The notes under the pieces are model-generated. The model saw only the letters and a list, made by a program, of their open reading frames with translations. It was not told the DNA's origin and did not search any database. A program made the translations under genes and the position numbers. Source: Branchipolynoe longqiensis (Eukaryota > Annelida > Polychaeta > Phyllodocida > Polynoidae). From it: a DNA stretch of 64,000 bases. The stretch spans positions 1 to 64,000 of the forward strand of contig JASIRB010003633.1 in assembly GCA_030323885.1 (NCBI GenBank), given 5' to 3'. This document shows positions 1,551-29,204 of the stretch, piece by piece (position 1 is the stretch's first letter; each line of letters begins with the position of its first letter).

Positions 1551-1806
1551 ATGTGATATGCAACATGCAGTTGTACAATTCCAAACGTAAGCTGACATTC
1601 CATTAGCGCGTACTGCATCATGCAATTTATAACCATGTGAGATGTGAAATACAGTTGTACAATTCCAAACGTAAGCTGAGATTCCATTAGCGTGTACTGC
1701 GACACACAATGTATAACAATGTGATATGTGACATACAGTTGTACGATTCCACACATAAGCTGAGATTCCATTAGTGTGTACTGCGACACACAATGTATAA
1801 CCATGT
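1551..1806. repeat. 84-bp satellite array, segment 2
   Basis: Three copies of the same 84-bp unit in the same phase and orientation as segment 1, bounded by the probable solo LTR on the left and the truncated LINE on the right. Confidence 0.95.
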
Positions 1807-2748: not shown

Positions 2749-2750
2749 AT

Positions 2751-3340: not shown

Positions 3341-3650
3341 GGCCGTGTTCAAGTGCGCGCCTAGGGAACACCTCAGAGAAATTGTGAACATTGCACGTGT
3401 CTGAACGAGATTTACCTGTCGGGTGCCTCGAAAATGGCAGCCTCCATAGCGTGCACTTCCTGCAGCCATTTACAATTGAAAGACCAGCTCTGATTGGCTG
3501 ACATTGAGTGACTACATCTCCATTTTGGAGGTGTTTTTGCCTCCTACTCGAAAAGCTTGACGTCCTGGAGTCAACTACTAGGTACACCTTGAACACAATT
3601 TGGCAAGAAAGATTCCGCGGAGCCGTCTTAGAGTCAGAGTAAACACGGCC
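3341..3650. mobile_element. Short TIR element (GGCCGTGTT ends)
   Basis: A 310-bp block inside the satellite with terminal inverted repeats: left GGCCGTGTTCAAG, right end reading GGCCGTGTTTACT on the other strand. No ORF worth calling. An internal CCTTGAACACAA (about 3580) repeats the terminal word in inverse orientation. The ends resemble PIF/Harbinger or hAT MITEs, but no clean target duplication is visible because the flanking satellite is diverged. Confidence 0.55.
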
Positions 3651-3712
3651 CATGTGATATGCTTGTAAGTTGTAGTATTTGACCCGCAAGCTGAGATTCA
3701 ATTAGTGCATAC
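3651..3712. repeat. Diverged 84-bp satellite unit
   Basis: CATGTGATATGC, then GCAAGCTGAGATTCAATTAG and TGCATACTG follow the order of the 84-bp unit with more substitutions than the main array. It sits between two TIR elements and shows the array once continued rightwards. Confidence 0.75.
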
Positions 3713-4668
3713 TGGCTGTATTCGATTACCGCGACCCGATGTAAAGATTTCAAATTCCCCCCTGATTGAAGTTCCCCCACGGGAACTTGAAAACGTTTTC
3801 AAATTCATCCCACGGGAATTTGAAAACGTTTTCGTTTTCCCTCCCTCATTTTAACTTTCGCTCCCCCCATTTTTGTGAAATTTTCTTTATTTTTGTTATT
3901 TAAAATAAATTTCATGACAAATATAATATTACACAGAGAATAGCATAATGGAAATTATTACTAGTACAACAAAACATATTTCACCCCAAATGACACAAAA
4001 AGTCTCCAAGATGGCTAAGAAAAAAATATTATAGGTCTGAATTTTAAAACGTTTTTAAAAGTTTTTTAAACAATTTTAAATGCCTGGAGGGGGGAATTTG
4101 AAAATAGGGGGAGGAATCTGAAAACTGTTTTTAATTTCCCTCCCGGGAATCTGAAAACGTTTTCAATTTCACGGCAGGGAAATTCAAAACGTTTTCAGAT
4201 TCCCGGGGGGAACTTGGAAAGGGGGGAAATTGAAATCGTTAGACCGGGCGACTCGGATCACCCGAGTGGAGTTGACAAAAACACGTGCCGTGTGCAAAAA
4301 GGCCCGACCCCAGTAACCCATGTCTTTGCTGGGGGTGGCTAGGAATGATGATGTCACATTTGCGCTGGTACGGTCCTGCAGGATAACAGCTACCAGTACC
4401 AGTCCTGCATGGTGTTTTTTTTGGGTAATAATGCAGATTGATGAAATGGAAATATAACTAAACTATGCAATCATAACATACTTTAAATCCTATTTTGGTG
4501 TAGTTATATCGGTTATTAAAAAAGAGAACAAAGTTTTGGATTAAGCCACCATTTTTTTCAGCCCGAGCATGGAGAAGTGTATTCGTTTATTCAACCCGAG
4601 TATGTAGGATGTGCGTATGCGCCAAAAAGTGGCTCGGGTGACCCGAGTTGGTTAATCGAATAGGCTGA
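3713..4668. mobile_element. TIR element C with nested insertion
   Basis: Ends read TATTCGATTA...TAATCGAATA and are flanked by GGCTG on both sides, a plausible 5-bp target duplication. Characteristic interior words are GACTCGGATCACCCGAG, CCCGACCCCAGTAACCCA and AGGATAACAGCTACCA. A second, diverged copy lies at 32932-33345. The left terminal region is split after GCGACCCG by element D (3741-4242), beyond which the sequence resumes ACCGGGCGACTCGG. It is noncoding and of unassigned superfamily. Confidence 0.7.
3741..4242. mobile_element. TIR element D nested in element C
   Basis: About 500 bp with inverted ends GATTTCAAATTCCCCCC (3746-3762) and GGGGGGAAATTGAAATC (4221-4237), matching at 16 of 17 positions when inverted. 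The interior repeatedly contains GGGAATTTGAAAACG and GAAAACGTTTTC, variants of the terminal word in both orientations. The corresponding site in the copy at 32932 is continuous (GACCCGGGCGACTCGG), which supports insertion into element C. No coding capacity. Confidence 0.65.
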
Positions 4669-4680
4669 CTGTGACACGGA

Positions 4681-5700
4681 ATGATTGATTGATTGATTGG
4701 TGGTTGCTTTAAACCCCTGACACACTATGACGTAAGAGCCAACATAAGCCTAGCGTAGGTGATGTTTCGTCATTACGTTGAGGTACGTTGGGTTATGTTA
4801 TGATGACGTTAGAATGACGTTAGACTGACATCGAGCTACGGCACGTTACGTCATGTCACGTCGAGTTACCTCAAGGTTTTGGACATGTTGAAAACTTTCG
4901 ATGTAGCTCGACATGAAGCCGTTACGTCGGGATGACTTCACACTGATGTTAGGCCGATGTTAGGCTGACGTTAGGCGACTGTTGCAGCTGCGTCAGTGAT
5001 GTTAGATCTACGTTCCGTTATGTCAGAGCGACGCACAGTCGGGGAGGAACGTGCAGCAAGCGTTAAGTGAACGTTGCTCGAACGTCAGCTGAATGAGTCT
5101 GTGGCATGTGGCGAACGTCGCTCCAACGTTTCGCTAACGTGTCCTGACATAGTTGACGTCGTTGATGACCCTTTAGCATGTGCATAACGTCGGCGATGTC
5201 ATTCGAACGTGTTCTGAACGTGGTGTGAACGTATATACACAAGGCGTGTGTGGGTCGGATGCTTTGACTGACTTCGGCCCGCATTCCCATTACATCGAGC
5301 GCGTCAGCCATGCGCTGTGATCATGCTGACGATGTTGGCATGATGTCAGGACGACGTTAGGCTATAACAGTCGAGTCGGACATGCCGACGTTCGAGCGAA
5401 CGTGATCACCCTAGGCCGATGTTAGAGCACCATTGGAGTCACGCTAGCCCAGCATCGAGCGTGCTGGAGTGTCGCTACTCTGACATTAACGCAATACGCT
5501 AGCCCGACATCACGGTGACGTCACACCCATGTCAACTACGCTGCATCGACATCCAACTTGTGCCGAAATTTGCATACTATGCCGAGAAGTTGGACGTACT
5601 ATAATTATTTTCACGTTGTGCCTACGCTGACGTCGTTACGTCATAGTGTGACAGGGCCTTAACGGCGTGTCAGCAGCATAGGCCATATTCACAGGGAGGA
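4681..5700 (-). repeat. SINE-2 copy split by TIR element A
   Basis: The two halves 4681-4712 and 5659-5700 join into one SINE-2 sequence: GATTGATTGATTGG tail, GGTGGTTGCTTTAA, then CGGCGTGTCAGCAGCATAGG and CCATATTCAC. The same order, inverted, is present at 35155-35265 and 55610-55702 without interruption, so those copies act as empty sites for the insertion of element A. Confidence 0.8.
4713..5658. mobile_element. TIR element A (TTAA target duplication)
   Basis: A 946-bp noncoding element flanked by TTAA at 4709-4712 and 5659-5662. Inverted ends share CCCTGnCACACTATGACGTAA. TTAA duplication with CCC-type ends is the hallmark of piggyBac-like transposons (Kolobok elements also use TTAA). It has no transposase frame, so it is a non-autonomous derivative. 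Most of the interior is built from degenerate TGACGT/ACGTCA words, the same word found at the inner edge of the TIR. It inserted into a SINE-2 copy. Confidence 0.8.
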
Positions 5701-5704
5701 ATGT

Positions 5705-5775
5705 ACACCAAGTGATATGCGTTTGTACAACTCCACATGTTCGCTGAGATTCCAGCAGTGTGTACTGCTGGTAGG
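5705..5775. repeat. Isolated 84-bp satellite unit
   Basis: AAGTGATATGCG, TTGTACAACTCCACATG, GCTGAGATTCCAGCAG and GTGTACTG follow the satellite unit order. This single diverged unit lies 2 kb from the last clear array copy, beyond several insertions. Confidence 0.7.
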
Positions 5776-7830
5776 TGTGAGTGTCGGTGTGAGTGTCGGT
5801 GTGTAGGTGTGGATATAGGTGTGGGTTGTGGGTGTGGGGGTGAGTGTGGGTGTTGATGTGGGTTGTGGGTGTGGGTGTGGAGGTGAATGTGGGTGCGGAG
5901 GTGAGTGTGAATGTGAATGTATGTGGGCTGTGGGTGTGTAGGTGAGTGTGTCTGTGTGGATATATGTGTCTGTGGGTTCTGGGTTTGGGTGTGGGTGTGG
6001 GTGCGGAGGTGAGGGTGTCTGTGTGGATGTATGTGTGTGTGGGTTGTGGGTGTGCGTGTGGGTGTGGAGGTGAGTGTGGGTGTTGATGTTGGTGTGGGTT
6101 GAGGGTGCACATGTGGAGGTGAGAGTGGGTGTGAGTGTGGAGGTGAGTGTGGGTGTGTGTGTGGAGGTAAGTGTGGGTGTGGAGGTGAGTGTGGATGCTT
6201 GTGGGTTGTGGGTGTGGGTGTGGAGGTGAGTGTGGGTGTTGATGTTGGTGTGGGTTGTGGGTGCCCATGTGGAGGTGAGTGTGGGTGTTGATGTTGGTGT
6301 GGGTTGTGGGTGTGCATGTGGAGGTGAGAGTGGGTGTGAATGTGGAGGTGAGTGTGGGTGTGGAGGTGAGTGTAGGTGTGGGTGTTGATGTTGGTGTGGG
6401 TGTGCATCTGGGGATGAGTGTGGGTGTTGATGTTGATGTTGGTGTGGGTTTGCATGTGGAGGTTAGTGTGGGTGTGGCTGTTGATGTTGGTGTGTGTGTG
6501 TGCATTTGGAGGTGAGTGTGGGTGTGGAGGTGAGTGTGGGTGTATGTGGGTTGTGGGTGTGTAGGTGAGTGTGTGTGGATGTATGTGTGTGTGGGTTACG
6601 TGTTTGGGCGTGGAGGTGAGACTTGGTGTGGGTGTGGGTGTGGAGGTGAGAGTGGGTGTGGGTGTGGAGGTGAGAGTGGGTGTGGGTGTGGAGGTGAGAG
6701 TGGGTGTGGGTGTAGAGGTGAGAGTGGGTGTGGGTGTGGAGGTGAGTGTGTGTGTGGAGGTAAGTGTGGGTGTTGATGTTGGTGTGGGTGTGCGTGTGGA
6801 GGTGAGAGTGAGTTGTGGGTGTGCGTGTGAAGGTGAGTGTGTGTGTGGATGTATGTGTTTGTGGGTTATGTGTGTGGGCGTTGAGGTGAGTATGGGTACC
6901 GGTGTTGATGTTGGTGTGGGTGTGCATGTGGAGGTTAGAGTGGGTGTGGGTGTTGATGTTGGTGTGGGTGTGGATGTGGAGGTGAGAGTGGGTGTGGGTG
7001 TGGAGGTGAGTGTGCGTATGGAGGTGAGTGTGGGTGTGGGTGTTGATGTTGGTGTGGGTGTGCGTGTGGAGGTGAGAGTGGGTGTGGAGGTAAGTGTGGG
7101 TGTGCGTGTGGAGGTGAGAGTGGGTGTGGAGGTAAGTGTGGATGTGGAGGTGAGTGTGGATGTATGTGGGTGGTTGTGGGTGTGGGTGTGGAGGTGAGTG
7201 TGTGTGTGTTGATCTATGTTTGTGTGGGTTATGTGTGTGGGCGTGGAGGTGAGTGTGGGTGTTGATGTTGGTGCGTGGGGAGGTGAGAGTGGGTGTGGGT
7301 GTTGATGTTTGTGTGGGTGTGCATGTGGAGGTGAGAGTGAGTGTGGGTGTTGATGTTTGTGTGGGCGTGCGTGTGGAGGTGAGAGTGAGTGTGGGTGTGG
7401 AGGTGAGTGTGGGTTGTGGGTGTCCGTGTGAAGGTGAGTCTGGGTGTGGGTGTTGATGTTGGTCTGGGTGTGCGTGTGGAGGTGAGAGTGGGTGTGGAGG
7501 TTAGTGTGTGTGGAGGTGAGTATGGATGTATGTGGGTTGTGTGTGTGGGTGTGTAGGTGAGTGTGTGTATGTGGATGTCTGTGGGTGTGGGTTATGTGTG
7601 TGGGTGTGGAGGTGAGTGTGTGTGTGGATGTATGTGTGTGTGGGTTGTGTGTGTGGGTGTGCGTTTGGAGGTGAGAGTTGATGTATTTGGGTTGTGGGAG
7701 TTGGGGTGCCGGTGGAGATGAGTGTGGGTGTGTTGGAGGCGAGAGTGCGTGTGGATGTATGTGTGTGTGGGTTGTGGGTGTGCCTGTGGAGGTGAGTGTC
7801 TGTGTGTGGGGGGGGGGGGGAGTGCTGGTC
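5776..7830. repeat. GT/G-rich minisatellite
   Basis: A ~2-kb tract almost devoid of C on the plus strand, made of GTGTGGGTGTGGAGGTGA-like words. A clear 24-bp period (GTGGGTGTGGAGGTGAGA with variants) appears at about 6630-6740, with interspersed GTTGATGTTGGTGTG words. Both strands give long open frames (Thr/His/Pro-rich on minus, Val/Gly-rich on plus) that are products of composition. It ends in a 14-G run near 7810. Dense GGG runs make G-quadruplex formation plausible on the plus strand. Confidence 0.95.
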
Positions 7831-7879
7831 AGCGTCCCCAGGTCACACTTCAAAGACCCCACAAGTGGAACCGACACAG

Positions 7880-9233
7880 TGTTAACTAGCGGTATTTTAC
7901 ACACTAGAATCTTTATAGGAAATATAACCCTAACTTCTGTGTGTGGAGGCCGGAAAGCACTAATGTATGATATTACTCAAGCGATGATCCGCTTACTGTA
8001 TATGCTTACTATATCTGCTTACTATATCTGTTCCAAGAAATATCAACCCAACAGAAATTAAGTGTGGTAAAGTCTAGTAGGGAGGGGTGGCTGGCTCCTC
8101 CTGCTGTGCTGTCTCCAGGTCATCTGCCTGCCACACCCCCTGCCCAGCTCTTTTATTCAGATTCAACACATTCAAAATACAGGTACACAGTTGCTTGGAG
8201 TCTCCTCAGTCAGAGAGTGTCACATGGCATTTCATTGGCTGAACCCCTCCAGTCAGTGGTGGGGGGTGGGGTGGGGGGGCAACCCATCCACCCCAAGTCA
8301 GATACATATTTTTCCATCAAGTTCACCAATTACACTTATATGGGAATATCAACCCTGTTTATATTTACATAACACCCGTGGTCACCAGTCCCTTAGATTG
8401 GGACAACTCCAAAATAGTAGGAGTTTCTACATGCCTTACTTTGAGAATTACATATTTTATCATCTTTAGTTCAGCAAACTGCCACCAGGTGGGGCAGGGA
8501 GGGCTCACCACACACACACACCACACACACTCCTCCCACCTCCAGCCTGACACCTGGCTTTGGCAGGTCCTGCAAACACTCACACACACACACAGCCCCC
8601 ATGCATTGTCACCTGTGTGCTAACACTCCCTCAGATACTGGCATCTGTAAGTCATACCATAACAATAACAGGCACACAGAACTTAATTCTTGACTTAATT
8701 ATTATACCCATTCTGTGGCATTCTTCACAGACTATTTGTCTGGGTGAAGAAACCAGTCTGCATCAACTGTATATGCTGCCCTTAGTTTCAGCATTTACCT
8801 CCTTTCATACAATATATAATACCAACAGACTTCAATTCAGTAATACATGTAAATATACCAATACAGTAATAATTTTCCAGAGTTCTTATCTCCAGTGGTT
8901 ATATTTGATGTAGAACCTTAGAACAATCTGATATTAATTATCACTTCACTTAATATACATAATCTACCATGGTTTCACAACTTGGTTTGAATATTATGCA
9001 TATGTATTTACCAACATGATAGAATGAATTAGGTATTATTAGAGAGGTTTTATAGTGGTACTTATATAATTGGAATATTATTATAATGACTTTATAGAAA
9101 TAACTGGATGATTAAATATGATAAAAAGTTTTTAATGCTTCACATATGAGTTTGATGAAAAGGAGATATTTTAGAATTTATTTAAACTATTATTTATTTA
9201 TGAACCAGACCTAAAAAGTCAGAATATTTTACA
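7880..9233 (-). repeat. 3' LTR of the Gypsy-like element
   Basis: An uninterrupted 1354-bp LTR. On the minus strand it runs from TGTAAAATATTC (at 9233) to CTAGTTAACA (at 7880). A polyadenylation signal AATAAA lies on the minus strand at 8157-8152, followed by a G/T-rich stretch, and an AT-rich ATATAAAC word lies about 200 bp upstream as a TATA candidate. Its uninterrupted sequence allows the insertions in the other LTR to be read precisely. Confidence 0.9.
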
Positions 9234-14543: not shown

Positions 14544-14820
14544 TCAACCGACTCTCGCTCGGTTGTATTGCCTGCTTATTTCTCGGTTTGTTACTGCCTC
14601 CCTCAGTGTCAACGACAACTGCTCAACCCTCTGTGCAACAGCTTCTTTGTTGTTGACCCTCCTCGTGCTATCTGTTAGGTTCCAAAGGGACCTATTTGGA
14701 TGCCTTCCGAAGGTGAGGAAGAAAGGGGAATGTCCAGTTGAATTGGAACTGGTCGTTCTATGAGCCAGCAGCGAGTCCCCAAGATAATCTTCCCATTCAG
14801 AAGCCCTTGCATTCACCAGC
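14544..14820 (-). pseudogene. Integrase core-to-C-terminal segment, frameshifted
   Basis: The frame carries NARASEWEDYLGDSLLAHRT and SPFFLTFGRHPN, typical of the Gypsy integrase stretch just after the catalytic glutamate. It is one nucleotide out of frame with the main 888-residue frame, which ends at 14813. A one-base indel or programmed shift near 14820 would connect them. No slippery heptamer stands out, so mutation is likelier. Confidence 0.75.
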
Positions 14821-17479
14821 TCTTCAGCATGTCTTTCAGGGTTCGATGGTACCTCTCCACCATCCCATTACTTTGAGGGTGGTACGGTGATGAGTGCCGC
14901 ACCTCCACCCCCAACTCCTTAAGATAACCCTCTACCAACTTGTTATGGAACTCACATCCCCTGTCAGTCAAAAAAACAGCAGGTGGTGAGTACCTGGGAA
15001 TGTACTCTTTAGACAGGTAATCATATATTAGAGCAGCTGATTTATTTGGTAGGGGCTTGGCTTCAACATAGCCCGTACAGTGATCAATTATGGAAAGCAA
15101 ATATCGGTTTCCCTGCCTACTCTCTGGGTAGGGTCCCGACAAATCTGCTCCCACCATCAATCCAGGTGCGGTCGGCAGAGGCATATCAGTGGGGGGTGGC
15201 TTGTCACGCTTAACTTTTGTGACAGCGCATGGTGCACATCTGGACACGTATCTCCACACATCCCGAGCCATTCCAGCCCACCCAAAGTGCTCCTGGACCC
15301 GCTCCAAGGTCTTTGCCGCAGCCATATGCCCTACATCCAAATGTGCTCTCTCAATCACCTGCTTTCTACACCCTTCCGGCAGTACCAACCGTGGGTACTC
15401 TGGTTTCCCCGCCAGAGCCCGAAGCGTGTAGAGAAGTCCTTCATGAAGGGTATAATCATTCTCCTCATTTCTACCCTCCTCATACTCCTTCATTTTCCTT
15501 TGCTCCCCTTCGAGTAGCTCCACATCCAACTGGTAGTATTTGAATGGAACTTCCTCCTCAGCTGCCATCCCAGACACCCATGCCATCTCCTGTGGCTCCT
15601 CCTTCCCTGGAAACAACCTCGGGAAGCACTCTTTCCAATAGTCCATTTCTGAGACCATCCCTTCCAACCGATGGTCAGTGTGACCTACATGGGCCCACGG
15701 GAGCTTCCGGCCGCCTAGCTGAACCTCCCGCGACTCATAATAAATCACCACATCGCAAGCCTCCATGGCATCGCTGCCTAGCAACACCTCATGCCCATGA
15801 AGGTCCTCAACTACATAGAAGTCGGTCTTCCTATCATAAATCGGCACCCTGGTGACTCCCAAAGTAGAAATCATGTGCCCTGTGAGAGACCTCAGTCTCA
15901 ACCCATCTCTTAATTGGGAAGCAACCACCTTTGCCCTGACCAAGTGCTCCCAGCACTTACGAGTAATAATCGATCTACTCGCTCCTGTATCGACCAGCGT
16001 CACAAAACTCACCCCGCCAAGGTTGAGCTTGATGCAAGGCCGGCGATCAGTCGCAACGATCAGTTTCCCTGGTTCTGATTGTTCCATGGCACTGATCGTC
16101 GGACCCCGCACCTTACGCAGGTGCCTAAGGGCTTTTGCTGCCTCATCACGCTGTGGACAATCCATCACCCGGTGGTCACCCTCACAGAAGTAGCAGCTGA
16201 ATGACCGGGGAGGTCCCCCTCCATTATGAAATCTACCCCCCCGACCCCAATCATTACGTCGTATCAGGCTCCCGCCACGCTGGTTATAAACCCCTCTATC
16301 TCGCTGGTTGTACCCCAAGCCCTGTTGCGCATTCCCAGAACCGTTCTGCTGGCTGTTATAGCCACTACTCTGTTGGTTAGACCCATTGTTGTCAATGGTA
16401 GACCCGTTGTTCTGATAGTTCCCCCCACTATCTTGACCTCTCATAGTGGCAACTATCGCATTCAAGAAAGTCTGCTGATTGAAGTCAGGCGGTACCCCGT
16501 CCCGAGGAGCCCATGCACCGTGGTGCCCTGCGCCTGTGGACACCTCATCATTTCTCTCATCCCTCCTATCAACATGCTTCCTCAGGCTCTTCAACTCGCC
16601 CTGTATAATCTTGTATGCCTGCCTCACCTCCCCTAATTCGGCCCGAAGTATCTCAGCAGCCTTCCCCATTTCAGAGCCCTTATCCCTCGCTGTACGGCTA
16701 TGCCTAACAGCGAAGACATCCATGGCCTCCTCCTCATCGCTATCTCCCCCCAATGCCCTCTCAGCATCTCTAGACATACCCTCTGTCTTTACCAGAACTA
16801 CAACCTCCTCTATAGTTGACGGCTTCTGCCGACAGATGGCACACCTAACATCTGCATGACTCAGAGAATTGATAACGGTCTTAACCAAGGTCTTAGTAGT
16901 GCTAGGGACCTGCAGATCATCTGGCTCCCATGCCCCAGCCACTGCATCACAGAATCGGTGGCAATATGACACTTCCGACTCATGCTTGGTTTGGGTCATC
17001 CGTTTCACAGTGTCCTGTAGAAACTCTTCTTCATCTGCAGTGAGTAAGGTTTCCATGACCTCCTTCTTCACCACCTCCCATGGGGTATCATGCTGCCTCC
17101 TTTGGAGTGACCTCAGAACATCCCTTAACGAACCCTGGGAGTGAGTCAAGGCAAATGCCAAGATCACTGAATCATCAAATTTATCCCCCTCATGCGCTCT
17201 GGCGGCTTCAATCCCATCCAACCATTTCCGTAAGGCCCCTTTCACAGACCCATCTGTTATCCCTACTAAGCCAGAAAATTCCCCAATTTTTAGACGGTAC
17301 GGTTTTTCTGGTACCAGTGGTAAAGATTGCTGCATCGCAATCTGGTACGATCCAAAGACATCTCTTAGGTACTGATCTGCATAGTCAGTCTCCTTGGCAT
17401 CCATAGGTATTTGACCTGCTGCCATGCGATCCCCCATCCACTTCTGAAAGTTTCCGTACTGACCCGGCGATATAGCCAT
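14813..17479 (-). CDS. Gag-protease-integrase polyprotein lacking RT
   Basis: An 888-residue open frame starting at an ATG with A at -3. Residues ~1-330 are an alpha-helical Gag-like region, followed by a Gly/Asn/Gln-rich stretch to ~425. A zinc knuckle lies at C429-C432-H436-C441 (CX2CX3HX4C, one residue shorter than the usual CX4H). An aspartic protease DTGA lies at 497-500, with LLGSD near 566. After only ~150 residues of linker comes an integrase zinc module (H713, H718, C748, C751) and a DDE core D779, D839, E875 with D-X35-E spacing. No YxDD, no RT fingers and no RNase H DAS motif occur between protease and integrase. In canonical Ty3/Gypsy, RT-RNase H sits there; in Gmr1-like elements integrase precedes RT. 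The frame is uninterrupted, so Gag, protease and integrase chemistry may be preserved while RT would have to come from elsewhere. Confidence 0.85.
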   Translation of the reverse strand: MAISPGQYGNFQKWMGDRMAAGQIPMDAKETDYADQYLRDVFGSYQIAMQQSLPLVPEKPYRLKIGEFSGLVGITDGSVKGALRKWLDGIEAARAHEGDKFDDSVILAFALTHSQGSLRDVLRSLQRRQHDTPWEVVKKEVMETLLTADEEEFLQDTVKRMTQTKHESEVSYCHRFCDAVAGAWEPDDLQVPSTTKTLVKTVINSLSHADVRCAICRQKPSTIEEVVVLVKTEGMSRDAERALGGDSDEEEAMDVFAVRHSRTARDKGSEMGKAAEILRAELGEVRQAYKIIQGELKSLRKHVDRRDERNDEVSTGAGHHGAWAPRDGVPPDFNQQTFLNAIVATMRGQDSGGNYQNNGSTIDNNGSNQQSSGYNSQQNGSGNAQQGLGYNQRDRGVYNQRGGSLIRRNDWGRGGRFHNGGGPPRSFSCYFCEGDHRVMDCPQRDEAAKALRHLRKVRGPTISAMEQSEPGKLIVATDRRPCIKLNLGGVSFVTLVDTGASRSIITRKCWEHLVRAKVVASQLRDGLRLRSLTGHMISTLGVTRVPIYDRKTDFYVVEDLHGHEVLLGSDAMEACDVVIYYESREVQLGGRKLPWAHVGHTDHRLEGMVSEMDYWKECFPRLFPGKEEPQEMAWVSGMAAEEEVPFKYYQLDVELLEGEQRKMKEYEEGRNEENDYTLHEGLLYTLRALAGKPEYPRLVLPEGCRKQVIERAHLDVGHMAAAKTLERVQEHFGWAGMARDVWRYVSRCAPCAVTKVKRDKPPPTDMPLPTAPGLMVGADLSGPYPESRQGNRYLLSIIDHCTGYVEAKPLPNKSAALIYDYLSKEYIPRYSPPAVFLTDRGCEFHNKLVEGYLKELGVEVRHSSPYHPQSNGMVERYHRTLKDMLKSW

Positions 17480-18847: not shown

Positions 18848-18865
18848 GCCATCATGGTCCACCAC
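18848..18865 (-). promoter_or_regulatory. Candidate primer-binding site
   Basis: Directly after the 5' LTR end (TTAACA on the minus strand) comes GTGGTGGACCATGATGGC. TGGTGGACC, one base from the LTR edge, begins with the TGG expected from the CCA end of a priming tRNA. The tRNA is not identified. Confidence 0.4.
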
Positions 18866-19487
18866 TGTTAACTAGCGGTATTTTACACGCTAGAATCTTT
18901 ATAGGAAATAGAACCCTAACTTCTGTGTGTGGAGGCCGGAAAGCACTAATGTATGATATTACTCAAGCGATGATCCGCTTACTGTATCTGCTTACTATAT
19001 CTGCTTACTATATCCGCTTACTATATCTGTTCCAAGAAATATCAACCCAACAGAAATTAAGTGTGGTAAAGTCTAGTAGGGAGGGGTGGCTGGCTCCTCC
19101 TGCTGTGCTGTCTCCAGGTCATCTGCCTGCCACACCCCCTGCCCAGCTCTTTTATTCAGATGGAGCACATTCAAAATACAGGTACACAGTTGCTGGGAGT
19201 CTCCTCAGTCAGAGACAGTCACATGGCATTTCATTGGCTGAACCCCTCCAGTCAGTGGTGGGGGGAGCCAGGGGGGTGGGGGGGGGCCAACCCACCCACC
19301 CCAAGTCAGATACATATTTTTCCATCAAGTTCACCAATTACACTTACATGGGAGTATCAACCCTGTTTATCTTTACATAACACCCGTGGTCACCAGTCCC
19401 TTAGATTGGGACAACTCCAAAATAGTAGGAGTTTCTACATGCCTTACTTTGAGAATTACATATTTTATCATCTTTAGTTCAGCAAAC

Positions 19488-20063
19488 ATAGAACAAGTAT
19501 CCGAATTCATATATCTCAGACAAAAGATTACAAATGATGGGAGATGTGAGGAAGAAATTAAAAGAAGGATAACAATAGCCCGAACAACATTCTGCAAAAT
19601 GTATAGAGTGTTAACATCAAGTAAGATATTAATACAAACAAGGAAGCGTATTCTTCAGTGTTATGTGTGGTCTACTCTAATGTATGGGGCAGAGACTTGG
19701 ACAATCTCTAAGAAAATGTACAAACGTTTAGCAGCATTTGAGATGTGGACTTATCGAAGGATGATGAAAATATCATGGACAAAGAAGATCACCAACAAAG
19801 AAGCTCTCAGAAAAATTAAAAATAAGAAAAGCTTGTTTGCCACTATACAGACAAAGAAACTTATTTATTTTGGCCACATCATTCGTCAGAGTTCAATATA
19901 CCGTACATTGTTGGAAGGGAAGGTGAATGGCAGCAGAGGGAGAGGGAGACCAAGAACATCATGGTTTACAAATATTTCACAGTGGACAGGCTTGAATTAT
20001 TCACAGTCTATCAGAACAGCACAACATCGGGACAAGTGGAGAACCATTGCATCCAACCCTTGA
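19488..20063 (+). pseudogene. RTE ORF2 C-terminal fragment
   Basis: The open frame enters from the truncation point and contains EFIYLRQKITNDGR, ILQCYVWSTLMYGAETWT, RRMMKISW and GHIIRQSSIYRTLLEGKVNG followed by RGRGRPRTSW, a string typical of the RTE post-RT region. It has no RT catalytic aspartates. The first ATG (19386 region) lies in LTR sequence and is not relevant. It is an undamaged but incomplete retrocopy. Confidence 0.85.
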
Positions 20064-20090
20064 CTAGAGGACGGAACTATTGATTGATTG
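19488..20090 (+). mobile_element. 5'-truncated RTE-type LINE
   Basis: Flanked by a perfect 12-bp duplication AGTTCAGCAAAC (19476-19487 and 20091-20102) of a site that is single in the other LTR (near 8470). It ends in (ATTG)3, the short-microsatellite tail typical of RTE elements rather than poly(A). It carries only the C-terminal part of the RTE polyprotein. Confidence 0.9.
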
Positions 20091-20720
20091 AGTTCAGCAA
20101 ACTGCCACCAGGTGGGGCAGGGAGGGGTCACCACACACACACACTCCTCCGCCCACCTCCAGTCTGACACCTGGCTTTGGCAGGTCCTGCAAACACACAC
20201 ACACACAGCCCCCATGCATTGTCACCTGTGTGCTAACACTCCCTCAGATAGTGGCATCTGTAAATCATACCATAACAGGCACACAGAACTTAATTCTTGA
20301 CTTAATTATTATACCCATTCTGTGGCATTCTTCACAGACTATTTGTCTGGGTGAAGAAACCAGTCTGCATCAACTGTACATGCTGCCCTTAGTTTCACCA
20401 TTTACCCCCTTTCATACAATATATAATAACAACAGACTTCAATTCAGTAATACATGTAAATATACCAATACAGTCATAATTTTCCAGAGTTCTTATCTCC
20501 AGTGGGTATATTTGATGTAGAACCTTAGAACAATCTGATATTAATTATCACTTCACTTAATATACATAATCTACCATGGTTTCACAACTTGGTTTGAATA
20601 TTATGCATATGTATTTACCAACATGATAGAATGAATTAGCTAATATTAGAGAGGGTTTATAGTGGTACTTATTTTTTTTTGGTGGTAAATATGTTTATTC
20701 TGCTGAATAAGTCTTTTGTT

Positions 20721-20734
20721 AGTGCCGAAGCACT
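20721..20734 (-). promoter_or_regulatory. 3' stem-loop of the LINE
   Basis: AGTGC-CGAA-GCACT on the plus strand, read AGUGC-UUCG-GCACU in the element RNA, about 50 nt before the A tail. The truncated copy at 2689-2704 has CAGTGC-TCTG-GCGCTG at the same place: the loop differs and one pair is changed, but pairing survives. This fits a 3' RNA structure recognised by the element's RT, as known for L2-type LINEs. Confidence 0.6.
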
Positions 20735-21358
20735 GGTCTTCCAGCCATTTTTCAGTTCAGTGTTATTTACACAAAAGGTATATAGAATAAGGTGTACAAT
20801 ACCTGTTGAATAGACAATTTGCACCATGTAACACAATGAAATTCTGAAACCCAAAAGTTCCATAACAATATGGTACAGTAGTGTCATATAACTAGATCAA
20901 TATTAGTCAGATCAATGTGAGTATTTACATAGTATTTAGAATGTAAGCAGAAGTTATCTTCTGTATTCAGTTGGTAAACTTGTAGTAAGTTTTAATCTTC
21001 AGTTGCAGTTAGGCAAGCTGTATATAAATGTTGGTTTGTTAGGAAAATTCTAGTGTAACTCTAATGTAGCTAGTTATGTGAGTTTATGAATTATGTTGTT
21101 GGGGTGGGGTTGTTAATAATACACTGGACCATCTGTGACCAGTGAAGCAGTGGGACCAATCCCAGTGCATTTAGGTCTTAAATTTTACATTTTTACCTGG
21201 ACTGTCTCTGTCATCGTATATGGTTGACTGGAGATAACAGAGGAACAGCAACAAATTAAAAAAGTGGGGGCTGGGGGTGGGGTGGGGGGGGGGGAGAAAC
21301 CGAGGCTGAGGGTTTGGTGGTCTGCCACTTACTGTATGGTGACGCCATGGAACATACT

Positions 21359-24256
21359 TTACTGCAACTGCATAAGGGCCTGCCCAATCCGATGTACTCT
21401 TAGTGAGTTTTTAAATTCTAGGTAAGAGGACGCTGCCCTGGTTCTGGTTGGTAGGTTGTTCCACATCATGCTGCCTTTGTAAATTGGTGCTTTAATTAGT
21501 TTGTTTGTGGAAGGCTTGGGGACTTTGAGTAGAGTGGAATCAGCCCGTCTAGTATTCCTTTTTGTGTTTTCTATATATTGGATATCTCTGGCTCTTCTGT
21601 ACATAAGTGATAGGAGATGTGAATCTCTTCTAACCATTAGGTAATCTAGGTTTGCTTTGTCATGCATTTCCTGTACACTTAGTGTTTTGCCCCAATAAAT
21701 TGTTCTTAACGCCTGGTTGTGGATCCTTTGTAGCTTAGTCAGTTGCTGCTTTGTGAGCAATCCATAAATTATATCATTATAGTCTATTATTGGTAGAACT
21801 GTTGATTTATACAGCAGTAGGGCAGTGTTTTCGCTTATGAAGCTCCACATCTTCCTGATTGTAGTCATTTTTAGTGCCAATGATTGAGTTAGTCTAGCCA
21901 GCTGTTGATTCCCACTTAAGGTAGAATCAATCACTGTTCCTAAGTACCTGTATGCACTTGCCTCCTTAATTTGATTTCCGCCAATATGCAGTGTTATGGG
22001 TTGTGCCCTTGCCTTCCTTGCTTTGGTGCCATAAATGACAAACTCAGTTTTATTGGTGTTAAGGGATAGTTTGTTTTCACTACACCACAGGTTAACCCTG
22101 GTCAGCACTGTCCGAACCTGATCGGTTGCTATTTGGAAATCTTTATTTTGTACTGTGAGTGCTGCATCGTCTGCAAATAATGTGAATGTTGCATCCTCTG
22201 ATACTTGGGGTAAATCATTTATAAAGATTAAAAACAGAAGGGGGCCCAGGGTTGAACCCTGCGGAACTCCAGTTTTAATAGTCCTGATGGTTGACACAGT
22301 GTCATTAAGTTTTGTGCATTGTTTCCTATTAGTTAAGTAGATGGCCATGAATGTACAGGTTTTCTTCCCCAATCCTGCTTTCTGGATTTTCTGCAATAGT
22401 ATTCTATGGTCAATTGTATCGAAAGCTTTTTTGAAGTCGAGGTATACTGCAATTGTTAGTTCACCTTTGTCCATGTTGGTCAATAACTCATCCATAAGAG
22501 AGGCCAATGCCCTAGTTGTTGATCTGTCTTTTCTAAATCCATTTTGTTGAGTGGTTAGGTAATTTGAAGACTCTAAAAATGTTTTTATCTCATCATGTAT
22601 TATTTGTTCTATGATTTTGCCAGGAAGAGGGAGAATAGATATTGGGCGCAGCTCACTACAGTATCTTGGGTTATTGGTCTTTGGGATGGGTGAAACTGTA
22701 GCTAGTTTCCAGCTTTCCGGAAAAATACCAGTGTTGACCACTAGGTTATACAGGTAAGTGAATTCATTTATAAGTGCAGTAATTGAAACCTTCATTAGGG
22801 CTGAGCTGATGTCTTTAATGCCAGATGACTTATATGTTGATGCAGCATTGACCTTTCTGAGGATTTGCTCCTGTGTTATCTCAGTCAAATCATACGTCTG
22901 ATCATTGGTGGTGACCGTGTAGGTGTCCTGACTATCTACAGCCTGGTCAAACTTTCTGGCAAGATTCTCACCTACATCAATAAAGTAGTTGTTAATCTCT
23001 TCTGCCAGGAGGCTATCTAGTATTCTCTCCCCGTTGTCCTCGTTACTAAGGTTGCTGATAATGGATTTTCCTTCTGGGTTAATTTGTTGCAGTTCATGCC
23101 AGAGTCTCTTAGGATTTTGCTTATACTTATTTATCTGGTCTAAACAGTGCCTAGACTTGGCTTTTCGCACCTCATTTCTGGCCTTCCTGACCATACATTC
23201 AGCTATAAATTGATCCACAGGGTCTCTTGTTATATCTGATTTCCGAATGAAATAATCTCTGTCCTGTTGTAATTCTAGGAGTTCATTGTTCAAATAACCA
23301 GCTGTTTTGTTTCTTATGTCAAGTCTAACCAGGGGACAGTGTTTGTTTGCAGCATTGACAATCATTTCTTGTATCATGTCCCAGCATTTGTTTGGATCTT
23401 CCTCTGATAGTAGTTCTGCTGTATTGTTTTCCCTCAAAGTGGCTGCTAGATCATTGAAGTTACAATTCCTGTAGGTGCGGCCCCAGTAGATGGTGGTTCT
23501 TTTGTCATTTCTGGGCTTTTTCTTTATTATATATATTGGTTTATGGTCGCTTATATTGTAGTTCAATACACCTGATTTTGTACAGTATTTGATATTAGTG
23601 AAAGCAAGGTCTATTGTTTTTTGTGTGGTCCTTGTTACTCTAGTCGGTTGTTTAATTACTTGCTGGAGTTCATGTTCTGCCGCAAATTGTTTCATATAGC
23701 CTGCAGGTGGGTGCCTCTTAGCGCTGTAGTCAATGTTAAAATCACCAATTAGGAGCACTTCATACTTATTAATGTCTGGGATCTGATTCATTGACATGCA
23801 TATTTGCTCTATTGCTTCATTTATGTTTCCATTTGGAGGTCTGTAGATGTTACCTATTAATATTCTTTTTGTGTAGGGTCTAGTTATGACAGCCCATTGG
23901 AGTTCAATGTTTGGATTAGAGCAATTTTGTTCCAAATACTTGTCTGCACTCACGTGCAGGTCAGTCCTGCAATAGATCCCTAAACCTCCACCATTCTTGA
24001 CCTGAACACTTTGTAGTTTTGTCTTCCTATCAGCTCTAAGAAACCGGTAATTAGGGATTGATGTTAACTTTGTCTCCATAGATTTATTGAGCCATGTCTC
24101 AGATATTGTGAATATATCAAACCCTGATCTTGGTAGGTCTAGTCTTAGTTGTTCTATCTTATGGGTTAAGCTGCGTACATTCAGGTGGCCAATCTTAAAT
24201 CCAGGGAGGCCCTTTAAATCGCTTAGAGGAAGCTTGCCTTCCTGACATCACCTGTT
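21359..24256 (-). CDS. LINE ORF2: AP endonuclease and reverse transcriptase
   Basis: A long open frame. From its first ATG (24079) it encodes 906 residues, but the frame stays open up to 24256 and adds the endonuclease start with HLNVRSL, FDIFTISETWL. Numbering from the ATG: GNIYRPPNGN near 76, GDFN 112-115 and SDH 177-179 (AP-endonuclease catalytic motifs), then RT with KAFDTIDH, GVPQGS and FADD at 635-638. It ends without RNase H. The layout (endonuclease, RT, no RNase H) and an A tail with 3' hairpin place it in the CR1/L2 group; the exact clade is not resolved. No upstream ATG exists in frame, so initiation may use a frameshift or reinitiation; a frame at 24223-24459 could supply the N-terminus. 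Confidence 0.9.
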
Positions 24257-24459
24257 TTGTTTATCCTCCAATTTCCCTCAGCATAGTTCTCAACCCCCAT
24301 GTCCCGGCGCCCCAATGCCCCAACAAATATAAGTTTACATGAATTAATTAGGTTTCCAGTCAACCAGTGTTTTAAAGTAGGTCCAGTTTCCCTAGACCAC
24401 AGCCAGCCAGTCCCACATTGGAGTGTGGAAAATACCAATGTAGTAACTCCATTGGCCAT

Positions 24460-25680
24460 CCTATTGTTGTATTAGTATTAATTAGTGCTTTAAGGTTAAC
24501 ACTAATCAGACAATTCCAAGCTGGAGAATCTGTGTGAGTTTTGCATGTCTCTCTTCAATTATAGTGTAAACTGTTAATATGTCATTGTTTGAGCATGTCT
24601 ATAAGTTTAGTGCTAGCATACAGAATGGTGGGGGCCTGATATCCTCTTTGACACTGATTCTAACAGGCATGCATTGGATTGGTTAGTGGATAGTGGGTCG
24701 GTAGGAAATGGATGGACCAGACTACATGTATCTCTGAAGTCTGGAGATAATAGCCAATCAATGAACAGTTTTCAGGAGTGGCACAATGTAGTCCAAGTAA
24801 TCTTTGTCTTAGGTGGTAAGCACATAGTCTGCCAGCCAACCAGCTGACACACTAGTGGTATGCAGCATGACCACCACATGTTCCAAGACAATACTTTGAA
24901 TAATGTGCACATAATCTGACATCAAATCAACTGATATACTATATTTTCTTGGATGCTGTTTGAGTAATAGGTCCATAGCATGACAGTAATAGGTACAAAG
25001 CATGGCAGCTCCATATTCTAAGATAGCGCATAACCACCAACCACTTGACTCACAACTGGCATGTAGCACGGCAGTTATAAATTCCAGGATTGTGTTTGAC
25101 TAACACATACACAGTATGACAGTCAACCAGCCGACCTGGCAGCATACTCATCATGGCAGCTAAATATTCTAAGAAGTAAGATACAGTTTGATTAACGAAC
25201 AGAAAAAACAAGGTTTTTTGGGTTATGTTCAGTGAGGTTCCTGCTGTACAACAAGTAGACAGCACCCAATATGTGGCACCCACTCTGCTCAGTGCAATAT
25301 TGGAAACACTGCAGGCTGACAATCAATCACAGCCAGATCACAGGTGTCAGTTCACCCTCACAGGCCCACTAAACTTTAAAAATCATTTGAATCATATCCA
25401 GTCTGGCATCCATATAATGTAACAGTTATATATTTTGGGATACTGTTTAAATAATGGGCACATAACATGACACCCACCCAAGTGATACACCCGTGGTATG
25501 TAGAATGAAAAATGCATGTTCCAGAATATGGCTTGAGCAACTGGCACATGGATATTCACCCACTGCAGCAGCATATAGCATGACAGTTATACATTCTAAG
25601 ACACTGTTCAAGTAACAGGCACACAACAGCCAATCAGCTGGCACAACAGTGCCATGACAGCCATATATTACCGGGAACTA
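24460..25680. repeat. Inter-ORF spacer with diverged ~80-bp repeats
   Basis: From about 24830 the sequence repeats words such as ACACTAGTGGTATGCAGCATGA, CATGTTCCA and ATGGCAGC with heavy divergence at irregular spacing near 80 bp. No coding frame is supported. Words shared with the 45-bp array to the right (CACCAGTGGNATGTAG) suggest that array grew from this older repeat. Confidence 0.6.
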
Positions 25681-25689
25681 TTTTGACTA

Positions 25690-26575
25690 GTGGCTACCCA
25701 ATACAACAATTAGTCAGAGCACCAGTGGTTACACAATACAACTATCAGTCAGCGCACTACTGGGATGTAGTACCCACACAATACAACAATCAGTCAGTGC
25801 ACCAGTGAGATGTAGTGGTCATACAATACAACAATCAGTCAGTGCACCATTGGGATGTAGTGGCCACACAATGCAACAATCAGTCAGTGCATCAGTGGGA
25901 TGTAGTGGTCACAAAATATAGCAATCAGTCAGTGCATCAGTGGGTTGTTGTGGTCACCCAATACAATATTCAGTTAGTGCACCAGTGGGGTGTAGTGCCC
26001 AGAAAATGCAACAATCAGCCAGTGCACCAGTGGTATGTAGTAGTCACACAATACAAAACTCAGTCAGTGCACCAGTGGGAGTGCACCAGTGGGATGTAGT
26101 AGCCACATCATACAACAATTAGTCAGTGCATCAGTGGGATGTAGTAGCCACACGATACAACAATTAGCCAGTGCACCAGTGGGAGTGCACCAGTGGGTGT
26201 AGTAGCCACACAATACAACAATCAGTCAGTGCACCAGTGGGATGTAGTAGCCACACGATACAACAATTAGTGAGTGCATCAGTGGGATGTAGTAGCCACA
26301 CGATACAACAATTAGTCAGTGCATCAGTGGGATGTAGTGGCGACACAATGCAACAATCAGTCAGTGCACCAGTGGGATTACATCAGTGGGATGTAGTAGC
26401 CACACGATACAACAATTAGTCTGTGCATCAGTAGGATGTAGTGGCGACACAATGCAAACAATCAGTCAGTGCACGAGTGGGATGTAGTGGCCACATAATG
26501 CAACAATCAGTCAGTGCATTAGTGGGATGTACCAGCCACACAATACAACAATCAGTCAGAGTATCAGTGGGATGT
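25690..26575. repeat. 45-bp minisatellite inside the LINE
   Basis: About 20 copies of a 45-bp unit: AGTAGCCACACGATACAAC, AATTAGTCAGTGCATCAG, TGGGATGT. The unit length is a multiple of three, producing spurious 15-residue-periodic frames on both strands. It sits between ORF1 and ORF2. Partial extra CACCAGTGGGAGTG inserts break the periodicity near 26085 and 26175. Confidence 0.95.
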
Positions 26576-26804
26576 AGCATGCCAGCTAGATAGTCCTAGG
26601 TAGAGTTTTAGTGGTGAATGCATGGTAGAACAGTTAACGACTCGATACACCAGTGGTATGTAGCATGATACAGATTCAGTCAAATGTTTTTGGGTTATAT
26701 TTGGCAAGGTCGCTGTTGTATTGCTAGTAAACATCTCACAATAGACATTATTTAAAAAAATTCCAAACCTGTTGTCCCTCACTTCATTTGCATTACAATA
26801 CTGG

Positions 26805-27540
26805 CTACACATCTCCATGTCTGGCAATCCTGATGCTTTCCCGCTTAGATACAAGTGCCAGTCCCAGCTTATTGAGGCCTTTGAATGATTTATCTCTCAG
26901 CTCCCGACTATGCAGGGTTGCTCCGATTCCATAAAAGGAATTAGTGGTAGCTTCGTGGAGAGTGAGGTTACCAGTATCCATGAGCATATCCATCAAGTCT
27001 GGGTTTTGATCAAACTTTAGATCCAAGACTCTTTTCAGTACGGTCTCCCTTTGTTGACGCCAGTCTGGTGAATCAGGAACCTGGTCAGCAATCCGCTTTG
27101 CTTCCAGTGGGGTGGGTGCCATAACAACCTGTCTAGAGTGATCCACTTCACCCACAGCCCTACACTTTTCTGCCTGAAACATGTGCTCTGCTGTTGGGTA
27201 GATTGTGTCATTGTCTTCAATGGGTGAGGCAAAAAAGTTTGACAGGAACGAATGTTCCGAGTGGAAGTATAGTCCCTCATCAAACCGGACTGTCTTAGCC
27301 TTGGCCAGAGAAAAGCGAGGTGGGAGAAGATTTTGCTCTGTCTGTTTATATTTTTTTCCATCGATAACAACTCCGTCCCCATGGACACGCACTTCGCTGC
27401 CGCTAGCTCTGGCCAGTGCTGCCACTGACCGATAATCTTCACGCATCTTGTGGGTTAGGGTGGTGACATCATCATTAATAAAAATACCTTTATATTTATC
27501 TGAGTCTTTGAGTTTGGTCCTGTACAGATCGGAACGAGAT
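26805..27540 (-). CDS. NADAR domain fused to LINE ORF1 C-terminus
   Basis: The frame 26805-27446 (213 residues from its ATG) is open upstream to about 27540 and continues the ORF1 text one nucleotide out of frame. After a short ORF1 C-terminal segment (GIFINDD...) comes a NADAR-like domain: FHSEHSFLSNFFASPI (residues 61-76), YPTAEHMFQAEKCR (83-96), an EAKRIADQVP-DW region (115-129), LDLKFDQNPDLMDMLMDTG (141-159) and HEATTNSFYGIGATL (164-178). NADAR/YbiA proteins act on ADP-ribose-like or riboflavin-pathway N-glycosidic bonds. The late motif usually has an acidic residue and WG; here NSFYGIG is seen, so activity is uncertain. Spacing and motifs otherwise look intact, suggesting selection until recently. 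Confidence 0.8.
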
Positions 27541-28158
27541 CATAATTGATCGAGGATGAATGGCAGTGTAGCCCTGGTGGTTTGATCTCGTATGTGGTAG
27601 CATTTGTCGCTTGCCCATCCGGTAGATTGACACCATGGCAGCTGGGTCAACTCCCACATTCAAGTAAGCAGTCAACTCCGCCACATATCGATGTAGGTCC
27701 TCTGCCTCCTCTTCAGGCTTTCCATCCAATTTCATATTGCAAATCCTAGTGCGGTTCTCCATGTTATTTAGTTGCATTGTCAGCCTCCTGTTGTTCTCCT
27801 CGGTGATGCTAAGCTTGTAAGCTGCTAGGCGTAAATTCCGGCTGTCAACACTATGTTGTCGGCGACTGTCTGCAAGGAGGGCCGTCAGGTTTGCCATGTC
27901 ATTGGTCACCTTGTCCACAAGACTTTCATTGCTTACTCTAATCTCAGTCAGACTGTTATTAAGCTTGTCTTCCATTCTATCCAGTCTTGCCATTATGAGG
28001 GCTAATGTTGGGATAGTGGAATCATGTTCAGATTGATTTCTGGAGTGGGGTGAGTGTGTTGTTGGCGATGATGGGCAGTCGACAGTCCCGGAGCCAGAAG
28101 CCACAACCGGCGTCTTCCCACGTGTGCGGGCCTTATCCCCAACTGTTTTCTGTGACAT
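27496..28158 (-). pseudogene. LINE ORF1 N-terminal part: coiled coil and RRM-like domain
   Basis: The likely start is the ATG at 28158 (MSQKTVGDKARTRGK); in-frame text upstream lacks an ATG. A Ser/Thr/Pro-rich head is followed by a heptad-rich stretch (IMARLDRMEDKLNNSL through ENNRRLTMQLNNMENR), a coiled coil that would trimerise, and then an RRM-like segment with RICNMKLDGKPEEEAED and IMISFRSV. This is the L1-type ORF1 RNA-chaperone layout. The frame stops at 27496 because of a one-base indel near 27530, after which the text continues into the NADAR frame. Confidence 0.8.
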
Positions 28159-28489
28159 TTTGCTAACACCAGTTTCAACCAAATTATCAATGTGTATTGA
28201 AATGTTCCAGGCCAGCCTTTTGGATAAGGCTAATTTATACGCGAGCTTTCTAACACTGGCACTGTCACACACCGGAGGCTGTAGTACCAACCATAAAATT
28301 TAGAATATGTATCAGTAAGATATTACGGGCTCACCGGCCTTGTAAATTTTAATTTCTCTGTGGATCCTCAGACATTGACACCACCATGCCAGCAAGTCAC
28401 AATTTGCATCACTCCTACTTGAGCGTAGCTTGAACAGATAAGTCTGATTCGAATCTGCCACATATGCCTATGAAATCGGTAGCTGTGTC

Positions 28490-28983
28490 ACTCATGCACA
28501 GAAAACCAGTTCAAACTCACCAGAGTGTGAGCTCCTGTCACTCAAATCCGGGCCAACCACCTTTTACTTGTATTATCACTCACTCACAACATTGGCTTTT
28601 TGTGTGATATTTAACTGATTATGTCCAAAATATGGTATCCTTGAATTCCCTAAGTTAAAATGATCCTCCTTGTATAGTCTGTATCTGTCTTTTTAGTAGG
28701 AGATGTTATATTTACCGTGTAATTACACTGTGTGGCACTCATGCACAGAAAACCAGTTCAAACTCACCAGAGTGTGAGCTCCTGTCACTCAAATCAGTGC
28801 CTACCACCTTTTACTTGTATTATCACTTAATCACAACATTGACTTTTTGTGTGATATTTAACTGATTATGTCCAAAATATGGTATCCTTGAGTTCTCTAA
28901 GTTAAAATGATCCTCCTTGAATAGTCTGTAGCTGTGTTTTAGTAGGAGACAATTTATTTTCCGTATAGTTACAGCTCCAGCTT
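28490..28983. repeat. 247-bp tandem duplication in the LINE leader
   Basis: Two successive copies starting ACTCATGCACAGAAAACCAG at 28490 and 28737, with the same downstream words (TTTTACTTGTATTATCAC, GATTATGTCCAAAATATGG). They differ at a few percent of positions. They lie upstream of ORF1, the position where monomer-type promoters occur in some LINEs, so a promoter role is plausible but untested. Confidence 0.85.
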
Positions 28984-28987
28984 GTTC

Positions 28988-29007
28988 GCACGAGTGTTTA
29001 CTCGTGC
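28988..29007. promoter_or_regulatory. Perfect hairpin at the LINE 5' end
   Basis: GCACGAGTGTTTACTCGTGC: an 8-bp perfect stem with a 4-nt loop, ~20 bp from the 5' terminus of the LINE. It could be a structural element of the RNA leader. Single copy in the window. Confidence 0.55.
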
Positions 29008-29027
29008 GTCATGTCCGTAATATATTA

Positions 29028-29204
29028 TTATATAATTGGAATATTATTATAATGACTTTATAGAAATAACTGGATGAATTAAATATGATTAAAACAGTTT
29101 TCTTAATGCTTCACATGTGAGTTTTATGAAAAGGAGCTATTTTAGAATTTATTTGAACTATTATTTATTTATGAACCAGACCTAAGAAGTCGGAATATTT
29201 TACA
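29028..29204 (-). repeat. 5' LTR of the Gypsy element, outer part
   Basis: It matches 9067-9233 nearly base for base (TATAATTGGAATATTATT to GAATATTTTACA). It is the piece of the 5' LTR displaced 8.4 kb by the LINE insertion. Confidence 0.9.

Follow-up and report, generated by a model that had tools for sequence, protein, structure and literature searches.

The 64,000-nucleotide stretch analysed here (the window) carries a two-ORF LINE whose ORF1 joins an RNA-coating protein of the L1 type (coiled coil, RRM, CTD) to a C-terminal NADAR glycohydrolase, which on balance we favour as an enzyme clearing ADP-ribosyl-guanine. The fusion recurs in the same order across many copies and relatives, and its NADAR domain combines the key active-site residues with the predicted fold of guanine-ADP-ribose-releasing enzymes. 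That the fusion is real and functional is close to certain; because it recurs so broadly, it is probably a part of element copying or host evasion.

Anatomy of the insertion and its fused ORF1

The whole LINE insertion spans ~8.36 kb on the minus strand (20673..29027) and lies within a repeat, a probable LTR, with TTAT at each flank. This repeat is intact at 7877-9233, and its second copy (18863-29204) is cut at 19487/20088 and again at 20672/29028, the second cut being the one that the LINE occupies. The 4-bp TTAT constitutes a target-site duplication (20669-20672 and 29028-29031), and an A-run marks the 3′ end of the element; A-runs are also present in L081, L082, and L086. The borders, which the sequence-only reading had fixed from the split LTR, are confirmed by L082 and L086, since these are independent, collinear insertions. 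L082, on a different contig, matches element positions 10-8355 in two overlapping blocks (94 and 98%) and possesses its own A-tail; L086 is also collinear with the window element, but has a deletion within ORF2. The window and L082 were the copies inspected for target-site duplications, and none was clear by eye in the L082 flanks as printed. The element thus bears the features of a LINE: a reverse transcriptase and an APE-type endonuclease within one ORF, a 3′ A-tail, a target-site duplication in the window, and 5′-truncated copies with variable breaks upstream. Its 5′ UTR contains a tandem pair of 247-bp units, ~92-94% alike (28484..28973, minus), possibly promoter monomers, and its 3′ UTR (20673..21358, minus) ends in the A-run. 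Elsewhere in the window, an 888-aa minus-strand frame between the two repeats (14813-17479) belongs to the surrounding probable LTR element; it encodes an aspartic protease and an integrase (H2C2, rve), and no reverse transcriptase match was found within it. A related LINE has left its 3′ end at positions 1807-2055 and 2675-2733, where the C-terminus of ORF2 is 54% identical and the 3′ tail is similar.

ORF1 is split between two minus-strand frames in the window copy. The N-terminal part (27541..28158) comprises a disordered start, a coiled coil, and most of an L1-type RRM, and the C-terminal part (26805..27539) comprises the end of the RRM, the CTD, and NADAR in a single open frame up to the stop. 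The NADAR domain proposed from the letters was borne out by a match to PF08719 (positions 8-163 of the family; 26829..27260, minus) with an E-value of 3.7e-27 and 96 bits against a cut-off of 35.1, covering residues 63-206 of the minus-strand frame 26805-27446. As a single sequence, the N-terminal part matched no significant Pfam family, but human LINE-1 ORF1p (2ykp/2yko, E 4e-6) was matched once 105 relatives were combined into a profile; the same ORF1-NADAR profile matches YbiA (1e-21) and oomycete NADAR (1.3e-19). The predicted fold of P0005 (87% identical) has the order coiled coil, RRM, CTD, NADAR, in agreement with the coiled coil and RRM-like region that had been read ahead of NADAR. 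The protein therefore combines a type II LINE ORF1, in which the coiled coil, RRM, and CTD share homology with L1 ORF1p, and a member of the NADAR superfamily, as judged by the PF08719 match and the predicted NADAR fold.

The frame change previously noticed between the RRM part and NADAR, near 27540, lies within 27496..27545 (minus), where the window lacks 26 bases present in L082. The RRM-to-NADAR spacing is exactly 127 bases in 13 of 27 linked window-family copies, compared with 101 in the window; the missing bases and this common spacing identify the frame shift as a lesion of the window copy. Unbroken fusions exist in P0005 and P0001, the latter without a coiled coil. Moreover, among 20 genomic copies picked for long open frames, a choice that speaks to the existence of unbroken copies and not to their frequency, 19 feature one stop-to-stop frame of 463-604 aa with NADAR, and the twentieth, L086, is listed with a 472-aa frame. 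The idea that the frame-shifted NADAR is spurious, arising by chance, was rejected given the strength of the PF08719 match and the unbroken P0005 and P0001.

An alignment search, in which the 8000 candidates with the most words in common were scored, recovered 109 public proteins at E-values up to 1e-3, and 109 of 109 carry PF08719. These are clusters at 90% identity, the count not being one of species, and as a set found with a NADAR-containing query they cannot show that every relative has the domain. The alignment omitted P0112 and three short pieces, and the 105 relatives retained are 38-53% identical to P0005. In the host genome (1.85 Gb), the NADAR family gave 1798 first-look candidates, and all 150 of those scored were above the cut-off. 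The window NADAR as query gave 1764 candidates, 150 of which were scored: 32 (window included) are 75-100% identical and the rest at most 64%. The ORF1-NADAR order recurs both in public proteins and in other genomic copies. Viral contigs gave pattern matches, none of them confirmed as relatives, and prokaryotic contigs gave 59 NADAR loci with 26-37% identity, nearly always confined to the NADAR part. The excluded P0112 (602 aa) comprises a weak PHD match, an SGNH/GDSL esterase, NADAR, and CCHC knuckles. Since PHD, esterase, and CCHC are all described as LINE ORF1 modules in PMC4120745, P0112 seems to represent another kind of NADAR-bearing ORF1, seen here as an ORF1-like protein.

Linkage to ORF2 and exchange of element halves

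In the fetched copies, the fused ORF1 is usually accompanied by a window-related ORF2. In 19 of 20 fetched 10-kb stretches, ORF2 (~42-98% in the main pieces) was found downstream on the same strand, whole or partial; L074 showed no ORF2 within its fetched 10-kb stretch. Together with the collinearity of L082 across the element, this supports the earlier claim that the domain belongs to the LINE insertion and not to a neighboring gene. Conversely, 47 ORF2 places were scored out of 47,976 first-look candidates: at ten of them, one of the 150 scored NADARs lies upstream in the expected order, and no place shows any of these NADARs in another arrangement within 8 kb. Upstream DNA was fetched for ten of the remaining 37, one of which comprised 647 bases to the contig end. 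The other nine contained no ORF1 or NADAR match, and eight of these match the spacer over anything between 61 bases and almost its full extent, up to a variable break, as 5′-truncated LINE copies do. Among public proteins, ORF1-NADAR and ORF2 were paired on same-source contigs of equal size in two cases, P0077 with P0122 (9926, ena) and P0091 with P0127 (5567, lgn). The chance of two such pairs is ~5e-4 (jitter test on contigs of at least 4300 bases; 12 ORF1, 27 ORF2); a third equal size (3814) had different sources and was excluded from the pair count.

Copies lacking NADAR, with an insertion border between RRM and NADAR, were also sought, and none was found among the candidates scored (8000 proteins; 150 of 1798, 150 of 1764, 150 of 419, and 47 of 47,976 in the genome). 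For this check 150 of 419 candidate matches to the coiled coil and RRM were scored. The window family contributed 32 places of at least 75% identity, two further pieces of the same copies having been merged, and 27 of the 32 have a listed NADAR at most 6 kb downstream. Four of the other five were fetched (C4:41714258 was left out): L105 has NADAR in two frames; L104 has the first 136 residues of NADAR, then a deletion; L106 showed no NADAR in the fetched stretch; and L107, an old copy at 75% identity, has lost NADAR through a deletion running from within ORF1 into the spacer. The NADAR-less copies encountered were thus fragments only, L107 being the one with such a deletion. An explanation of NADAR as a neighboring host gene, or as a secondary insertion in one LINE copy, is already refuted and retains a negligible probability. 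In favor of it, the host genome does hold separate NADAR genes on C3 and C18, but these host NADARs lie beyond a 100/100 branch from the LINE NADARs, and the one-frame fusion recurs in other genomic copies and ~105 public proteins.

ORF2 (21359..24247, minus) is a 962-aa open frame comprising an endonuclease (PF14529, E 4.4e-9; 23531..23863, minus) followed by a reverse transcriptase (PF00078, E 1.2e-33; 21935..22687, minus). A C-terminal zinc knuckle was not found in the window ORF2, and a C-rich motif after residue 700 was found in 0 of the 26 relatives of at least 880 aa among the 32 best ORF2 matches. Human L1 ORF2p scored 46-50 bits against the window ORF2, barely above 8gh6, a 'reverse transcriptase-like protein' of R2 type, at 45 bits. 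The reverse transcriptase and the region after it aligned to a CR1 fragment with a score of 185 against a shuffled maximum of 55, the comparison being to a single, approximate fragment. In the Jockey superfamily, which includes the CR1/L2 lineages, ORF2 is ~900-1000 aa without a C-terminal CCHC; in the Tx1/L1 group, Tx1 being an L1-group clade, it is ~1250-1300 aa with a C-terminal zinc knuckle. The size and missing knuckle of the window ORF2 accord with the former and not with the latter. From its length, the lack of a C-rich motif in relatives, the weak L1 ORF2p score, and its likeness to the approximate CR1 fragment, we provisionally call this ORF2 CR1/L2-like, not Tx1/L1-like, a label assigned by features and scores.

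In the window (24200-24330), ORF2 opens right after a stop codon shared with L082, L086, L087, L088-L093, and L095-L097. No in-frame ATG precedes the conserved HLNVRS start of the endonuclease in the window or in any of these copies, whereas a methionine lies upstream in the predicted ORF2 proteins of public relatives P0113, P0115, and P0120. Candidates for the ORF2 start in the window family are a non-AUG codon, a frameshift, or splicing.

Between the two ORFs lies a 2.56-kb spacer (24248..26804, minus), unusually long for a LINE, which features a minisatellite with a ~45-bp unit (25689..26577, minus). The gap had raised the suspicion of a separate ORF2 element nested beside an ORF1 fragment; this was rejected, as other copies carry the spacer too, which therefore belongs to the element. 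From NADAR to ORF2, the gap is 2582 bases in the window, 1122-2634 in ten linked places, and ~1.3 to 5.4 kb in those copies fetched from other families whose ORF2 start fell within range. Within the spacer there is also a junction between unlike element halves: L087 possesses an ORF2 ~97% identical to that of the window, whereas identity between the two NADARs is just 62%. The stretch of L087 that resembles the window element starts at position 4159, and the same junction occurs elsewhere in L088 and L090, L087 being the only one of the three seen with ORF1. It thus seems that a recombinant subfamily has multiplied in which this ORF2 half is paired with a different ORF1-NADAR half. The L087 type provides an example of two LINE families that share one ORF2 and differ in their ORF1-bearing halves, which fits the reticulate ORF1 evolution described in PMC4120745.

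Active site, selection and origin of the NADAR domain

The catalytic glutamates and lysine are nearly invariant across the 105 relatives. Both the glutamate of [TS]xE[HQ] and that of E[AVTS]T are present in 105 of 105, as is the tryptophan equivalent to W89, and the lysine is present in 103. Mapped by alignment, the equivalents in P. nicotianae are E43, E125, W89, and K50 (PMC11543638), and the catalytic E43, K50, and E125 all have their counterparts in the window copy. The W133 position is F or Y in all 105, and the D130 position is not conserved; these differences suggest that substrate specificity may differ from that of the oomycete enzyme. Mean pairwise identity among the 105 relatives is 0.53 for NADAR, 0.57 for the CTD, 0.38 for the RRM, and 0.24 for the coiled coil.

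The fusion is under purifying selection in the sample tested. Across ten young, non-overlapping pairs (20 of 25 sequences used), dN/dS was 0.28 for NADAR, 0.36 for the RRM, 0.47 for the coiled coil, and 0.61 for the CTD. The NADAR value rests on 57 synonymous and 57 non-synonymous differences in 1550 codons and comes from open-frame copies ranked by NADAR score or identity, a choice that favors conserved NADARs and biases dN/dS downward. Two older pairs gave 0.14 for NADAR, 0.21 for the CTD, 0.34 for the coiled coil, and 0.48 for the RRM. The dN/dS comparison of the NADAR segment, suggested beforehand as a check, thus shows constraint among selected open-frame copies at both depths.

The LINE NADARs group together with support of 94/90 in a 57-row tree, and a quick tree of 65 rows recovers the group with 97 SH-aLRT. 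Both trees were subsampled (every sixth LINE row, every second of 173 bacterial rows), and the long-branched L054 was dropped from the former and kept in the latter. The LINE side also holds P0112, on a long branch of unsure position, two public proteins, and one bacterial row. Host NADAR genes group with bacterial NADARs across a 100/100 branch from the LINE NADARs, and derivation of the LINE domain from the C3 and C18 genes is thus not supported; its candidate sources are bacteria, a virus, or an unsampled animal gene. The probable host genes themselves comprise two NADARs in one 364-aa frame at C3:44965561-44966586 (L060/L061) and one NADAR in a 200-aa frame at C18:16441513 (L062), both with WGIG motifs unlike the LINE NADAR.

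Proposed function and relation to known systems

The LINE NADAR is probably catalytically active. Its substrate is, by a modest preference, ADP-ribosyl-guanine in nucleic acid, and protection from host ADP-ribosylation is a plausible role to which we give somewhat less than even confidence. By analogy with L1 ORF1p, the coiled coil would trimerize, and the trimer would coat the element RNA to form an RNP lined with NADAR active sites. NADAR could then strip ADP-ribose from guanines of the LINE RNA, its cDNA, or target DNA, where such lesions would otherwise hinder translation or reverse transcription. Their likely source would be a host ADP-ribosyltransferase, for example of the guanine-N2 type known in clams; a DNA guanine-N2 ADP-ribosylating activity is reported for six edible clams. 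The sequence-only reading had proposed removal of host ADP-ribosylation or alteration of the RNA, a reasonable hypothesis of which nucleic-acid de-ADP-ribosylation is the likeliest version, because published NADARs act on guanine-ADP-ribose in DNA and RNA: they reverse guanine ADP-ribosylation in DNA, and all representatives tested do so in RNA, according to the available accounts. In the same body of work, YbiA and phage NADARs are active on guanine-ADPr in vitro and do not rescue cells from DarT1, such that in vitro competence is no proof of a cellular role.

Several other activities must be weighed against this one. The domain might be an active N-glycosidase whose target is not a modified guanine of the element but a small molecule, either derived from ADP-ribose or an intermediate in riboflavin metabolism, or else an RNA end or cap; this we judge rather unlikely. 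The established role of YbiA is the cleavage of riboflavin-pathway intermediates, viral NADARs might prefer soluble ADPr derivatives (PMC9503650), and in nematodes SNA-3, a protein containing three NADARs, acts together with the SL1 snRNP and the cap-binding complex CBC-ARS2 (PMC9303266). The tether to an RNA-coating protein, however, better suits a nucleic-acid substrate, and NADARs are described as inactive on phosphate-end ADP-ribosylation. Removal or binding of ADP-ribose on proteins, such as PARP-marked integration sites or targets of host antiviral PARPs, is improbable, and the literature covered yielded no measured NADAR activity on protein-linked ADP-ribose. Marginally less probable again is a NADAR that binds ADP-ribose or RNA without catalysis: in favor of this, the oomycete enzyme does differ at the W133 and D130 positions, but a structural role would not demand the near-invariance of the catalytic glutamates and lysine in 105 relatives.

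A broader and tentative proposal can be made, which we hold to be possible though doubtful: that a large, old LINE clade armed its RNA-coating protein with an ADP-ribosyl-guanine hydrolase. Marine invertebrate hosts, perhaps along with their microbes, would use guanine ADP-ribosylation to tag the RNA or cDNA of parasites, a tag that the LINE would erase inside its own RNP. If this counter-defence were true, NADAR would be a recurrent retroelement accessory, found in at least two ORF1 architectures (CC-RRM-CTD-NADAR and PHD-esterase-NADAR-CCHC) and in algal Gypsy. The fusion shows ORF1 carrying an enzyme domain. To our knowledge, nucleic-acid ADP-ribosylation in animals has no clear physiological targets, and the role of animal NADARs has been described as unclear (PMC11125620). 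A retrotransposon whose RNA-binding protein has retained an active-looking NADAR across deep divergence is a concrete, testable case: the protein and its candidate substrate are both defined, and transposition supplies the read-out.

The sequence-only reading knew of no standard LINE clade defined by such a fusion, a view not supported in that form: NADAR-like ORF1s are reported in several Tx1 LINE families of the mollusc Crassostrea gigas (PMC12477816). Among the matches listed in openly licensed literature, this is the only report of a LINE ORF1-NADAR; as far as its text was covered, it does not describe the element's anatomy, the selection on it, the exchange of halves, the kind of ORF2, or the additional architecture. 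The oyster elements likewise carry a YbiA-family NADAR in ORF1, but the account is brief, giving in its available part no domain order, ORF2, or selection, and suggests processing of an RNA intermediate as the role. Compared by description only, they are assigned to Tx1, whereas the window ORF2 is ~960 aa without a zinc knuckle. NADAR is also built into Ectocarpus Gypsy retroelements, which differ in being LTR elements with NADAR N-terminal in Pol; horizontal acquisition is called possible there, the matches being almost all bacterial (PMC12477816). The ORF1 core, matching L1 ORF1p, resembles the type II ORF1 (coiled coil-RRM-CTD) of L2/CR1-lineage LINEs in PMC4120745, where ORF1 shuffling between LINE lineages is proposed; Table 1 of that work (448 elements) gives PHD, RRM, CCHC, esterase, Tnp22, coiled coil, zinc finger, and leucine zipper, without NADAR. 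The fold, catalytic glutamates, and lysine are shared with DarT1-associated and stand-alone NADAR ADP-ribosylhydrolases (PMC11543638, PMC11125620, PMC11833690); those are stand-alone or toxin-linked, whereas the window NADAR is a domain of a retrotransposon ORF1 with F/Y in place of W133. Finally, the NADARs of animal RNA virus polyproteins (PMC9503650), likened by description only, also sit beside replication proteins in a selfish RNA-based element, in a polyprotein there and in a LINE ORF1 here.
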